A stretch of 64,000 nucleotides of DNA from Microcaldota archaeon (lineage in GTDB: Archaea > Micrarchaeota > Micrarchaeia > Norongarragalinales > Norongarragalinaceae), in assembly GCA_016207165.1 (NCBI GenBank), contig JACQQD010000001.1, positions 62,001 through 126,000 of the forward strand. The letters run 5' to 3'. The position numbers and the translations under genes are program-made. The notes under the pieces are model-generated. The model searched no databases. It was not told the origin of the DNA and worked only from the letters and a program-made list of their open reading frames with translations. Shown here in pieces: positions 5,912 through 10,850 of the stretch (positions are counted from its first letter, which is position 1; each line of letters starts with the position of its first letter).

Positions 5912-6327
5912 CAGTTGTCGGACACCTTTCCAGGCTTGAATTCAGTGGGTTTGGGTTTGCTTTTGGGCGTGCTTGAATACGTCCCCGCGTTTTGCCTCGT
6001 GATTCTCACCAAACCCTTGGCTCGCAGAAGTTCCAGGATTTCGTTGGATTCGTGGAGGGCCAGGGGTTGGTGGAGTTGAATGTATTGGCGTCGGGTGTTG
6101 GGTTCGTCGTACTCCTCGCCCACAACGACGAGTTGGGTTTCCGTTTGGAGGAGGGTCAATTTCTCGTTGATGCCTTCAACGCCGCCCTTGAAGGGGTGGA
6201 GGGTCACCGGAATTTTTACTTGGAGGGCTCCGGACACGGATTGAGTGGCGTGGGCTTGGTTCCAGTGGATTTGTTGAATGTCGCCGTAGCGGTGTAGGTT
6301 CTCGATTTCTCGGATTAGGTTTTTCAC
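5911..6327 (-). CDS. Uncharacterised protein in the Ub-like operon
   Basis: 138 aa; ATG overlaps stop of the E2 gene; same strand and operon. Confidence 0.75.
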   Translation of the reverse strand: MKNLIREIENLHRYGDIQQIHWNQAHATQSVSGALQVKIPVTLHPFKGGVEGINEKLTLLQTETQLVVVGEEYDEPNTRRQYIQLHQPLALHESNEILELLRAKGLVRITRQNAGTYSSTPKSKPKPTEFKPGKVSDN

Positions 6328-6788
6328 AGTCCGACCACCCTCGGCCCTTTGGGTTTGTGTTGCGGCAAGTCTTGGTGTTCCAGGTAGTACCTCGCCGCCT
6401 CTTCGTTCAGGGGGCTTTGGGGGTTGGGGTTCTTGAGCAATTGGATGAGGCCGTTTACGACGCTTACGAGGTTCTGGCCTTCACTCCACTCGTTGACGAG
6501 TTGGATGCACACTACGCCCACGCCTGGGTGGATGTTGGGGTGGAAAATGGGGGTCAGCCAGAACGCCATGAGTCCGCCGGGGTAGGGGTAGTCGCGGTTG
6601 AGTTCAATGCGGACGGAGTGCTGGCTTCGTGGCACGATGGAACCGTTTTGCTGGGCGAGGCCGGGGCCTTGGATGGAGACGGTGTACGTGGTCAAGTCAG
6701 GGGTGACGTCGAATCGGATGCCGGCGGCTCTCATTTCCGCGCACTCGCTTTCCAGGCGTCGCTTCCAGATGGCTTCGGGCAGTTGCAT
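6324..6788 (-). CDS. E2 ubiquitin-conjugating enzyme (UBC fold)
   Basis: 154 aa; PYPGGLMAFWLTPIFHPNIHPGVGVVCIQLVNEWSEGQNLVSVVNGLIQLLKNPNPQSPLNEEAARYY reproduces HPN, catalytic Cys, Trp and NP..PLN signatures of E2s. Confidence 0.95.
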   Translation of the reverse strand: MQLPEAIWKRRLESECAEMRAAGIRFDVTPDLTTYTVSIQGPGLAQQNGSIVPRSQHSVRIELNRDYPYPGGLMAFWLTPIFHPNIHPGVGVVCIQLVNEWSEGQNLVSVVNGLIQLLKNPNPQSPLNEEAARYYLEHQDLPQHKPKGPRVVGL

Positions 6789-6795
6789 GCGTTTT

Positions 6796-7287
6796 TCACG
6801 TGGGTTCGACGTTAATGTTTTCCGTGTATCTTTTTAGTTTTTCTGCTTGCCGCAGCCACGTTTTTCGGGTGGGCCGGGCGTGGATTCGGAAATTCACGAC
6901 GGCATTTTCAGGAACGCGCAGGCCGGCGTCTTGTCCCCAGGCGGGCAGGGTGTCTTCAATGCCGATTCCGGTGACTTGGACGCGATGGGTGCCTCCGAGG
7001 TGGCGTTGGAGGCGTTGCTCCAAGTGGCGGCGGATGGCCAGCACGACGTCGGCTTCCTGAGGGGTCGGCATCCAATCTTGTTCTTTGGACGGCGTCCAGG
7101 TGGATGGATTTGAGAGTACCGCGTTTCGGTACGCGTCCTGAATTTTTTTTGGGACTTGTCCCGTCCATCGGGCGGTGGCACGGATGGTGACGTTGAATTC
7201 GTCGCCTTTGGGTACGGCGTCCACGGAAAGAATGGTTGTTTCAGTCAATGGCTTGAACAACAAGAGGCGTTCCAAGGCGCGCAGCAT
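6796..7287 (-). CDS. Uncharacterised protein in the Ub-like operon
   Basis: 163 aa; between Ubl (stop 10 nt upstream) and E2 (start 7 nt downstream). Confidence 0.75.
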   Translation of the reverse strand: MLRALERLLLFKPLTETTILSVDAVPKGDEFNVTIRATARWTGQVPKKIQDAYRNAVLSNPSTWTPSKEQDWMPTPQEADVVLAIRRHLEQRLQRHLGGTHRVQVTGIGIEDTLPAWGQDAGLRVPENAVVNFRIHARPTRKTWLRQAEKLKRYTENINVEPT

Positions 7288-7297
7288 GGTGTGGGGT

Positions 7298-7540
7298 TTA
7301 CCCGCCGGTGGGGTCCGGCATCAGCAAAAGCTGGTCGTTTTCCTTGAGTCCCGCTTCTTGGACGGTGACTTCCGGGCCCAGGATCTTGTGGTCGGCTGTG
7401 GCCAACACGAAGCGGTCTTTGAGTTTGAGGCTCTCGGAAAGCACGTCCAAAATCGAGGAAACGGTAAACGCGGGTTCGACGGCAACCACGATTTCCTTTC
7501 CGGACGTCGTGTGCATGATGGTCACGTTGAATTCACTCAT
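7298..7540 (-). CDS. Ubiquitin-like modifier with C-terminal Gly-Gly
   Basis: 80 aa MSEFNVTIMHTTSGKEIVVAVEPAFTVSSILDVLSESLKLKDRFVLATADHKILGPEVTVQEAGLKENDQLLLMPDPTGG; Ub-like order (strand-strand-helix, ...L.ENDQLLLMP) and terminal GG; operonic with E2. Confidence 0.88.
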   Translation of the reverse strand: MSEFNVTIMHTTSGKEIVVAVEPAFTVSSILDVLSESLKLKDRFVLATADHKILGPEVTVQEAGLKENDQLLLMPDPTGG

Positions 7541-7653: not shown

Positions 7654-8427
7654 ATGGACAAACCCAAGATCGTGTCGGTGTCCGGCGCGGATTCAGACCA
7701 AACACAGCGGGACGCGTTGGGGGTGCCCCCGTTGCCTGGCGGCGAACCGCAGCCAAAAAGGTCGTCTCCGGAAACCCGACTCGTGGCCCCCCCAAACCTG
7801 CAACGCGGGCAGACGAATCAATCAAGCCTTCAACCCAAGCAAACGGTTCTTCAACCCGCATTTGAATCCGAGTCCGAAATTCCTCCGGAACGAATGACGC
7901 CGGAATCGCCGCTTGTTTCACAACCCGTTTCCAGAACGCAGACGGAATCCGAAGTTTCAATGCCGCGTCCTGTCGCGGAGCCGTCACCATCGAAACCGGA
8001 AAACCCGGAGCAATCCACGCCGGGTGCCACTTCCAAACCGCCGGACCCGCTTGCTGTGGAGCCGGAGCAACCCGTGGTTCAAGTCCGGCCCGTTTTGTCC
8101 GACCCCGTTTCGGCGCCGCCGTGGGTGGCGCGGAACCAGCCGCGTCCGAAAGTGTTTATGCGTCCCGAGTTTGACGACCGCGAGGACGAGGCGTTGGCCC
8201 GCGACTTGTTGTCTGATTCAAAGCCCCGCATCGTGGCCCGCCGGGACGTGGCCCAGGAATACCGTGAACAGGCTTCCCGTGACATTCTGCCACCGTCCCC
8301 GCCTCCGCATCCGTTGACCATGGACGAGCAGCGGGCGCACGCCAAGGGGCTGGCGCAGAAAATCCACGAGGGAAAACAGTCGGAAGGCTTTTTCTCGAAA
8401 CTCAAACGCAGGCTTGGGTGGCCGTAG
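7654..8427 (+). CDS. Proline-rich, probably disordered protein upstream of JAMM protease
   Basis: 257 aa from MDKPKIVSVSGAD; Pro/Ser/Glu-rich; overlaps JAMM start; C-term FFSKLKRRLGWP. Confidence 0.75.
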   Translation: MDKPKIVSVSGADSDQTQRDALGVPPLPGGEPQPKRSSPETRLVAPPNLQRGQTNQSSLQPKQTVLQPAFESESEIPPERMTPESPLVSQPVSRTQTESEVSMPRPVAEPSPSKPENPEQSTPGATSKPPDPLAVEPEQPVVQVRPVLSDPVSAPPWVARNQPRPKVFMRPEFDDREDEALARDLLSDSKPRIVARRDVAQEYREQASRDILPPSPPPHPLTMDEQRAHAKGLAQKIHEGKQSEGFFSKLKRRLGWP

Positions 8428-8870
8428 CCTTGTACGACGTGTACTTGTCTGCGGACGTGGTGGAAAAAGCCCAAACGCATTTCCGCACCGCCGCGTCCCG
8501 GGGCAAGGAAGCCATGGGCTTGTTGTTGGGGTCCGCCTTCGTCTGGAACGGCAACCCGTATGCCGTGGCGGAACGGTACGTGACGGCGTCCAACGACGCG
8601 ACGGCGGTCAGCGTTCGCTTTTCTCGCGAGGCGTTTTCCGATCTTTCCAAAAAACTCAACGGCTTTCGCGTGGTGGGCTGGACGCACAGCCATCCCGACT
8701 ACGGGTGTTTTCTGTCGTCCACCGACGTGGCGACGCAGGAATCGTTTTTTTCGGAGGACTTCCATTTTGCGTTCGTCGTGGACCCGGTGCGCGGCGAAAA
8801 GAAATGCTTCAAAGTGCGAAACGGTCAAAGCGTGCCCGTGGGTTTCGCCGTGATTCGGAGGAAGCGCTAA
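8418..8870 (+). CDS. JAMM/MPN+ metalloprotease (Rpn11-like deubiquitinase)
   Basis: HSHPDYGCFLSSTD = HxHPx(6)SxxD-type motif with upstream E in KEAMGLLLG; 150 aa, GTG start. Confidence 0.92.
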   Translation: MAVALYDVYLSADVVEKAQTHFRTAASRGKEAMGLLLGSAFVWNGNPYAVAERYVTASNDATAVSVRFSREAFSDLSKKLNGFRVVGWTHSHPDYGCFLSSTDVATQESFFSEDFHFAFVVDPVRGEKKCFKVRNGQSVPVGFAVIRRKR

Positions 8871-9658
8871 TGGAGGAACGGCAGGACGGTGTGTTGGCCT
8901 CCGATGGCGCGGTTCCCAAGCAAGCGCCCAAAACCAGGAAAAAGCGGAAAGCCGCCCAGCGCTTCAAGGTCACGCGGTTTGACAAGGATTTAGTCAAACT
9001 CATTCACGCTGGCACGACGAACCTCAAAGACGCATGCCAACAATTGGGCGTGGACTACGACTCGGCGCGAAGCCGTGCGCTGGCCATGGCGGAAAAAAAG
9101 TGGCTGGTCACCGACCCCTCGCATGCCGACGTGTTCCGCTTGGGTTTGGAGGGCTACAACCAGTTTGCCTCCGTCGTCAAACCCAAAGCCAAGTCATTGG
9201 CGGCCAAGGCGTCGGGGCGGTCGCCGCCCAAGGCGGCGGTCGCCGATTCGGAACCCGTGCCTCCACTGGAAGACGTGGATTCGCTGCCTTCGGCGTCCAA
9301 TGCCGTGGACTTGGCGGACTTGCTCCGCCGGGGCGCGCCCAAGTTGACGTCGGGGGAGCCGACGGATTACGGGTTGCCTGCGCCGTCACCTTCGCTGCCG
9401 GTGCCGCCCGTGACGCAGAAAAACGCCGCGGAAAGCACGGTGTGCGAACTGTGTCGGGCGCCGTTTAAGTTGTCCGTCAAGAATCTGGAGGGCGCCAAGT
9501 ACGCGCACTGTTTCTGCGGGGCCGCGTACCACAAGGACTGCTATCACGCGTTGGTGGAAGGCGGGGGCCGGTGCGCGCGGTGCGGAAGAAAGCTTTCACT
9601 CATCCTGGATCGGCACGCGGATGAGGCCCTCAAAAGCGTCAAGGATTTGTTTGACTAG
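8870..9658 (+). CDS. RING-like zinc-binding protein, candidate E3 (N-terminal HTH-like region)
   Basis: 262 aa; CELC-x(18)-CFCGAAYHKDC-x(10)-CARC cysteine/His spacing; start overlaps JAMM stop (TAATG). Confidence 0.8.
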   Translation: MEERQDGVLASDGAVPKQAPKTRKKRKAAQRFKVTRFDKDLVKLIHAGTTNLKDACQQLGVDYDSARSRALAMAEKKWLVTDPSHADVFRLGLEGYNQFASVVKPKAKSLAAKASGRSPPKAAVADSEPVPPLEDVDSLPSASNAVDLADLLRRGAPKLTSGEPTDYGLPAPSPSLPVPPVTQKNAAESTVCELCRAPFKLSVKNLEGAKYAHCFCGAAYHKDCYHALVEGGGRCARCGRKLSLILDRHADEALKSVKDLFD

Positions 9659-10079: not shown

Positions 10080-10850
10080 TTAGGGATGCACCGGGCACGT
10101 TTTTCTTTTGGGAACCTCGAAGGTTTGCGTTTGCTGGGTTAAGCCGTTGTAGTGCACGTACGTTCCCGCGCCAGAGTTTTGTTGCAACAAGTTGGCCAGC
10201 CAGGCGTTGACTTGCATGGCGGACACCACGGACGTGGTCGTCGGAAGGGCGGGGGTTTTGGGGTCCAGGTAATCCAGGACTTCCCCGACGCAGCTGTACT
10301 TTTTCCACAGCAGTTTGTAGTCGCGGTTGTTCATGCCGCACTCCAGGCATGAAGACGGTTTGGATACGACCTGCAGCTTTCCAAAGAATCCGTTGGTGCC
10401 GCCATCAAACAGGGGCGCGTAATGATAGGTTTGGGCGTTTGTGTGAAGGCGCGCGCCCAGGTTGTCCAAACAACCAAAAACGGCGTCGTGCGTTTGGAAC
10501 GCGGTTTCCGGAATCGTTTCCACGGCCCGGTGGTCCGGCGTGATGGCGGTGTCAGGAAACGTTTTGGCGGCTTTTTCGACGATGACGTCGGCCTTGAATC
10601 GGTGCGTTTGCGCGTCGCTTGAATCAAAGAAGACGCAGCGGTTCAAGTTGGCCGGAACCACGGTGTCAAAGTCAACGACGGTGATCTTTCCGACGCCCAA
10701 TTGAAGCAAGAGCTTGACGGTTTCGTTGCCCAAGGCCCCTGCTCCGATGACCAAGACGTTTTGCTTCCTGATTTTTTCCTGGTCCCATTGCGCAACGCGT
10801 TTTTGGCGGTCGAAGCGGTCCGCGTCCACAACCTTAATTTCAGGCGCCAT
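10080..10850 (-). CDS. E1-like / ThiF-MoeB family adenylyltransferase
   Basis: RFDRQKRVAQW, VLVIGAGALGNETVKLLLQLGVGKITVVDFDTVVPANLNR, CLECG...CPVH zinc ligands, PTTTSVVSAMQVN; 256 aa. Confidence 0.93.
   Translation of the reverse strand: MAPEIKVVDADRFDRQKRVAQWDQEKIRKQNVLVIGAGALGNETVKLLLQLGVGKITVVDFDTVVPANLNRCVFFDSSDAQTHRFKADVIVEKAAKTFPDTAITPDHRAVETIPETAFQTHDAVFGCLDNLGARLHTNAQTYHYAPLFDGGTNGFFGKLQVVSKPSSCLECGMNNRDYKLLWKKYSCVGEVLDYLDPKTPALPTTTSVVSAMQVNAWLANLLQQNSGAGTYVHYNGLTQQTQTFEVPKRKTCPVHP

Follow-up and report, generated by a model that had tools for sequence, protein, structure and literature searches.

An Rpn11-like JAMM protease encoded beside a ubiquitin-like protein that ends at Gly-Gly in the archaeal order Norongarragalinales

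A gene for a ubiquitin-like modifier (Ubl) that stops directly after Gly-Gly, encoded close to a JAMM metalloprotease, raises the question of what the protease does when the modifier carries no tail to be removed. Such a locus lies in the window analysed here (the whole stretch of DNA, 64,000 nucleotides in length), whose source is an uncultured DPANN archaeon of the phylum Micrarchaeota, order Norongarragalinales, with a genome of 1.27 Mb in 12 contigs; all of the sequences compared are metagenome assemblies. Outside eukaryotes, the complete ubiquitin-type cascades on record come mainly from Aigarchaeota and Asgard archaea, and the open-licence papers searched, two on Norongarragalinales among them, did not report a ubiquitin system for Micrarchaeota.

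The Ubl is encoded on the minus strand at 7298..7540 and was characterized by translation, homologue alignment, Pfam, AlphaFold2 and Foldseek as an 80-aa beta-grasp modifier (MSEFNVTIMHTTSGKEIVVAVEPAFTVSSILDVLSESLKLKDRFVLATADHKILGPEVTVQEAGLKENDQLLLMPDPTGG*). Its gene closes with ...LLLMPDPTGG-TAA, the TAA stop occupying 7298-7300 and the two glycine codons 7301-7306, and the coding sequence thus ends at the reactive glycine. The first-pass annotation had read this end as PDPTGG-stop without a C-terminal extension, and both the translation and the homologues bear it out, since 19 of 26 also stop at Gly-Gly. Between them these 19 use every stop codon (13 TGA, 5 TAA, and 1 TAG), in keeping with a correctly called stop and making stop recoding or readthrough unlikely. 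The start was likewise correctly called, as the ATG at 7540 lies 3' of a Shine-Dalgarno-like stretch (GAGGTG) and an M-x-E-[FY] start is found at the equivalent position in almost all of the 26 homologues. A chance Gly-Gly end was rejected because Gly79 and Gly80 are invariant in 26/26 sequences that share 43-85% identity with the window Ubl, and the longer PDPTGG is present in all except G024 (DSEGG). The encoded product (residues 1-80) has a monoisotopic mass of 8618.5 Da, and its computed tryptic remnant is 14 residues long (ENDQLLLMPDPTGG, +1480.687 Da), so that standard K-GG enrichment would miss it. The computed remnant is DPTGG (+427.170) for Asp-N and PTGG (+312.143) for mild-acid cleavage at Asp-Pro.

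By profile and by fold, the protein resembles SUMO and ubiquitin. Pfam gives a Rad60-SLD/SUMO-like match (E=3e-4) just below the curated cut-off and a ubiquitin match that is also sub-threshold, and does not place the Ubl in the ThiS family. The AlphaFold2 model (pLDDT 82) adopts a beta-grasp fold for which Foldseek retrieves SUMO1, ubiquitin, ISG15, and Caldiarchaeum Ub with TM-scores of 0.83-0.86.

Homologues of the Ubl occur in 26 of 301 Micrarchaeota genomes, at one copy per genome and in every case within Norongarragalinales, where 26 of 29 genomes carry it and the three that do not are 61-79% complete; its start, fold and Gly-Gly are kept across all 26. Searched independently for the Pfam E2 model, the 301 genomes yielded precisely these 26, and a search for JAMM returned all 26 together with one incomplete member of the order and one weak match elsewhere. 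This last match (G033:C5:7041-7394; 31% identity) falls within a 1029-aa open frame in a complete genome of another order and is possibly a JAMM fusion. In the cluster itself, the Ubl and E2 genes share one strand, the JAMM and RING genes lie on the opposite strand, and the E1 gene is back on the strand of the Ubl, an order and orientation kept in nearly all relatives with sufficient flanking sequence. Because the E2 and JAMM searches return the Ubl genomes and the gene order is conserved, the Ubl, E2, JAMM, RING and E1 genes are taken to form one inherited system. An unassigned 163-aa protein is encoded between the Ubl and E2 (6796..7287, minus strand); it has no significant Pfam family, is absent from most loci and has a homologue only in the congener G002 (31% identity). 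Being confined to close relatives, it was rejected as a component of the system and probably lies outside the core set.

The E2 (154 aa; 6324..6788, minus strand; Pfam UQ_con, E=6.6e-18) has an HPN motif at residues 83-85, a catalytic Cys94 and the C-terminal sequence GPRVVGL, and HPN...VCI is kept in 24/24 relatives. The E1-like enzyme (256 aa; 10080..10850, minus strand) is matched by Pfam ThiF over residues 19-254 (E=9e-42), and its PDB matches, UBA7, UBA1, UBA6, UBA2, and UBA5, agree with an adenylation domain. It carries zinc ligands at C168 and C171 and in a C-x-x-H near the C-terminus; its sole invariant non-zinc cysteine, Cys187 (KYSC-G-E, 21/21), is a candidate for the catalytic residue that would load the E2. 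Cys187 lies somewhat upstream of an LPTT stretch that resembles UBA5. With ThiF spanning nearly the whole chain, no separate catalytic-cysteine region, C-terminal ubiquitin-like domain, or E2-recruiting domain is visible in the 256 residues. The enzyme is far shorter than the E1s that have been studied. The RING-type E3 candidate (263 aa; 8867..9658, plus strand) has eight C4HC3 zinc ligands (C193, C196, C215, C217, H222, C225, C236, and C239) that are invariant among 13 aligned homologues; its Pfam match is below the cut-off, and Foldseek pairs its low-confidence model (pLDDT 69) best with the RING domains of TRIM21 and RBX2, at E-values of about 2.5e-3 to 6e-3. The ligand order is that of RING-CH/MARCH-type fingers as opposed to the usual C3HC4, and the middle of the protein is long and of low complexity. 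The functions given to the E1 and RING-type proteins are predictions from sequence.

The JAMM metalloprotease (150 aa; 8418..8870, plus strand; Pfam JAB, E=3e-14) is Rpn11-like, with putative catalytic residues Glu31, His90-x-His92, Ser100, and Asp103. Its best PDB matches are, in order, yeast Rpn11 (E=1e-11), CSN5, and Caldiarchaeum Rpn11, followed by BRCC36 and AMSH. The catalytic Glu and the H-x-H-P-x6-S-x2-D motif are complete in G001 and at each of the 25 loci checked, irrespective of whether the accompanying Ubl has a tail.

Such tails, of 1-18 residues following the invariant Gly-Gly, are present in seven of the 26 relatives. They read N, F, SA, LN, NFSNIARE, YQRSPRTPNAANGC, and YEKGLAQSSKSTRGKYSS, and have no sequence in common. 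One pair falls within a single genus, in which G015 stops at Gly-Gly and G026 continues for 14 aa (L051 about 963-1205; L040 9230-9472), a difference that represents a recent gain or loss of a propeptide. On a tree built from eight neighbouring proteins, the tail state has changed at least about five times, and well-supported branches require three of these changes; in the clade to which the window belongs, all four members keep the Gly-Gly stop. Since no other order has the Ubl, the phylum offers no outgroup for polarity, and hand-counted parsimony is indecisive between a Gly-Gly ancestor (5 steps) and a tailed one (6 steps). The Gly-Gly stop was also considered as a device for abutting the E2 gene, an idea that was dropped as the Ubl-E2 distances of tailed and tail-less groups overlap.

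For the window Ubl, the earlier proposal that activation requires no maturation protease is upheld: the gene stops at Gly-Gly, and in Caldiarchaeum a Ub with its stop right after Gly-Gly is activated by the E1, to which the tailed precursor is refractory (PMC5654768). The accompanying proposal, that JAMM acts in deconjugation rather than in maturation, is the best-supported reading for the window species, given that tail-less relatives keep the active site, and finds no support as a general rule, as seven of 26 relatives encode a tailed Ubl beside the same JAMM. With that many tailed loci and at least about five changes of state, the distinction can be drawn species by species but not for the JAMM family as a whole. 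The intact catalytic residues of every tail-less relative indicate that JAMM has been kept for a job other than maturing the Ubl, and deconjugation is most likely its role in the window, being the candidate best supported by the comparison of loci and by analogy with known enzymes. The seven tailed relatives, by the same token, place maturation within the ancestral or current repertoire of the JAMM family, which across Norongarragalinales is probably bifunctional, serving in both maturation and deconjugation. Evolutionary rates were compared as well. The divergence of JAMM relative to E2 is 1.14 in tail-less pairs and 1.11 in tailed pairs, and relative to E1 it is 1.46 and 1.20, respectively, the pairs being non-independent. 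The higher ratio to E1 would fit a mild relaxation, but relaxation of JAMM in tail-less lineages was not adopted, given the absence of an effect against E2 and a small effect against E1 in non-independent pairs.

The remainder of the genome offers other candidate partners for ubiquitin-like proteins and JAMM proteases. It encodes a 66-aa SAMP/ThiS-like Ubl (L079 1498-1698 (-), C12) that also stops at Gly-Gly (...FVGIIYGG-stop), and a further, Prok-JAB-type JAMM (HSHPDPDTAYPSDED; L083 1276-1851, C11), with which the SAMP-like protein is probably paired. Given this separate pair, SAMP processing is not required to account for the Rpn11-like JAMM; nor are tailed substrates that would explain its retention evident in the genome. 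Alpha/beta-type subunits of a 20S proteasome are present. SAMP-type and ubiquitin-type systems thus seem to coexist in this genome, as they do in Caldiarchaeum.

We consider it likely, the proposed role of JAMM included, that the window Ubl is a genuine modifier of the ubiquitin/SUMO fold that would already be mature when it leaves the ribosome. The starting points are the observed sequence end, the fold prediction, gene linkage, the co-occurrence of Ubl and E2, catalytic conservation and the lability of the tail. In the pathway envisaged, the 256-aa E1 would adenylate Gly80 and probably take the Ubl onto Cys187, from where it would pass to Cys94 of the E2, a step suggested by the intact E2 motifs, and the RING-type protein would direct its transfer to lysines. 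The Rpn11-like JAMM would then cut conjugates directly behind Gly80, which would undo the tag and free the Ubl for reuse; this step draws on the active site, on its retention in tail-less species and on the activity shown for Caldiarchaeum Rpn11. In the tailed minority, the same JAMM would very probably also trim the Ubl precursor.

This pathway has to be weighed against other readings of the same locus. An assembly or gene-calling artefact, or readthrough of the stop, might be suspected in a metagenome assembly, although no result backs it, and comparison refutes it: 19 independent genomes share the identical end, through TAA, TGA, or TAG, no conservation extends 3' of the stop, and the E2 start codon lies 3-20 nt further on in several genomes. 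We give it practically no credence. Only slightly greater weight attaches to the Ubl being an unconjugated sulfur carrier or cofactor protein of the ThiS/MoaD/Urm1 kind, its free Gly-Gly serving for thiocarboxylation. Sulfur carriers do likewise stop at Gly-Gly and work with ThiF-type E1s that lack large cysteine domains, but the Ubl matches SUMO and ubiquitin rather than ThiS in both profiles and fold, a ThiS search of the genome matches a different gene, whose product is a separate member of that family, and the Ubl strictly co-occurs with an intact E2 and is accompanied by an Rpn11-like JAMM and a candidate RING-type E3, for which a sulfur carrier has no need. This reading is accordingly held to be very improbable.

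The two remaining alternatives concern the history of the tail. JAMM could be foremost a precursor-processing protease, the tail-less species having lost the tail recently and retained the enzyme through inertia or for an unrelated substrate, a history compatible with the seven tailed relatives, the divergent pair G015 and G026, the maturation of CsUb by CsRpn11, and the slightly raised JAMM/E1 ratio in tail-less pairs. A maturation-only protease should, however, decay in tail-less lineages, whereas JAMM evolves at equal rates relative to E2 with and without the tail, and in several deep tail-less clades every JAMM retains all of its catalytic residues; we therefore regard this history as improbable. 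Less easily set aside, though still rather unlikely in our judgement, is that the Gly-Gly stop and the tails of 1-2 residues are neutral variation without functional meaning, generic carboxypeptidases or JAMM exposing Gly-Gly in any case. The unconserved length and sequence of the tails, their repeated changes, and the nearly equal cost of the two ancestral histories all accord with neutrality, which is opposed by the predominance of the Gly-Gly stop, including in the whole of the window's clade. Neutral variation is in fact compatible with JAMM as a deconjugase and competes only with an adaptive value of the end.

How so small a set of proteins might be brought together is suggested by the short sequence P[RK][IV][IV], after which x-[VIL] often follows. 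This motif occurs in the last 12 residues of the E2 in 24/24 genomes (0.53 expected after shuffling for the whole set), and in the window the C-terminus of the E2 (6324-6360) reads ...KGPRVVGL; among the 122 ORFs of at least 100 aa in the window, the E2 alone has the motif at its C-terminus. The motif recurs in a low-complexity, proline-rich linker protein (257 aa; 7654..8427, plus strand; no Pfam match) that is encoded upstream of JAMM and overlaps it, and that begins with MDKPKIVSV before repeating the motif, as in SKPRIV. In 19 linkers, 33 motifs were counted against 0.70 expected, a figure that is inflated because the choice of ORFs was partly guided by the motif; a list drawn up blind to the motif shows the same. 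There is one occurrence in the E1, and none in the JAMM, RING, or Ubl proteins. The spacing is similar to that of a SUMO-interacting motif, with flanks that are basic instead of acidic. The motif may serve in archaea to dock proteins on the Ubl, drawing E2 and JAMM to it, or the small E1 could be the site at which both are docked. A shared docking motif is an attractive idea because this E1 lacks the domain by which larger E1s recruit their E2. Only tentatively, then, can the Norongarragalinales system be put forward as an independent minimal ubiquitin pathway with a labile Ubl end, its parts held together by P[RK][IV][IV].

A tag encoded in its mature form is not in itself unusual, as the same is true of Urm1, ATG12, and FAT10 (PMC11354881) and of the SAMP-like protein of the same genome (...YGG-stop). 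New here is that a DPANN order has a complete predicted E1-E2-RING-JAMM-Ubl cluster, in which the E1 is minimal at 256 residues, the propeptide has been gained or lost naturally, and a putative docking motif is common to the C-terminus of the E2 (24/24) and to a disordered protein adjacent to JAMM. Repeated gains or losses of the propeptide, next to an Rpn11-like protease that stays the same, amount to a natural experiment that separates the making of a tag from its removal, and which of the two protease jobs came first, or is essential, becomes testable with small, expressible proteins.

Several known systems share parts of this arrangement. Urm1, ATG12, and FAT10 expose their reactive glycine end at translation as the window Ubl does, though the Ubl lies outside their sequence families. 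To our knowledge, no Rpn11-like JAMM gene lies beside that of Urm1, ATG12, or FAT10. The bacterial Bil/Bub operons, like the window cluster, bring together a Ubl, an E1, an E2 and a JAB-type protease; their E1 similarity is weak (BubCD, E=2.6e-6), no RING-type protein is reported for BilABCD, and BilA is processed by BilC. Among archaea, SAMPs end at Gly-Gly. Haloferax SAMP1 and HvJAMM1 constitute an archaeal Ubl and a JAMM that reverses its attachment, as proposed here, but SAMPs resemble MoaD and ThiS and work without an E2 or RING, and HvJAMM1 is of the JAMM-1 type and not Rpn11-like (PMC4443979). The closest parallel is the system of Caldiarchaeum subterraneum (Aigarchaeota, with relatives in Asgard archaea), in which counterparts of the five parts predicted here are clustered and JAMM is transcribed opposite to the Ub gene (PMC5654768, PMC6043591). 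Its Rpn11 both matures the Ub precursor and removes isopeptide-linked Ub from conjugates (PMC5654768, PMC6043591). The two systems have in common a beta-grasp ubiquitin with C-terminal Gly-Gly, an E2 with HPN and Cys and a JAMM closest to Rpn11, and the RING-type protein of the window is a candidate counterpart of the Caldiarchaeum one. CsUb, however, shares only about 21% identity with the window Ubl in a structural alignment and is made with a 9-aa propeptide (CGEPIRRAA) that the latter lacks, and CsE1 has additional catalytic-cysteine and C-terminal ubiquitin-like domains, whereas the window E1 is 256 aa, all of it ThiF. Because of these differences in precursor form and E1 architecture, the window system is not strictly of the Caldiarchaeum type, and the linker protein with its P[RK][IV][IV] motifs is a further component that Norongarragalinales have in addition.
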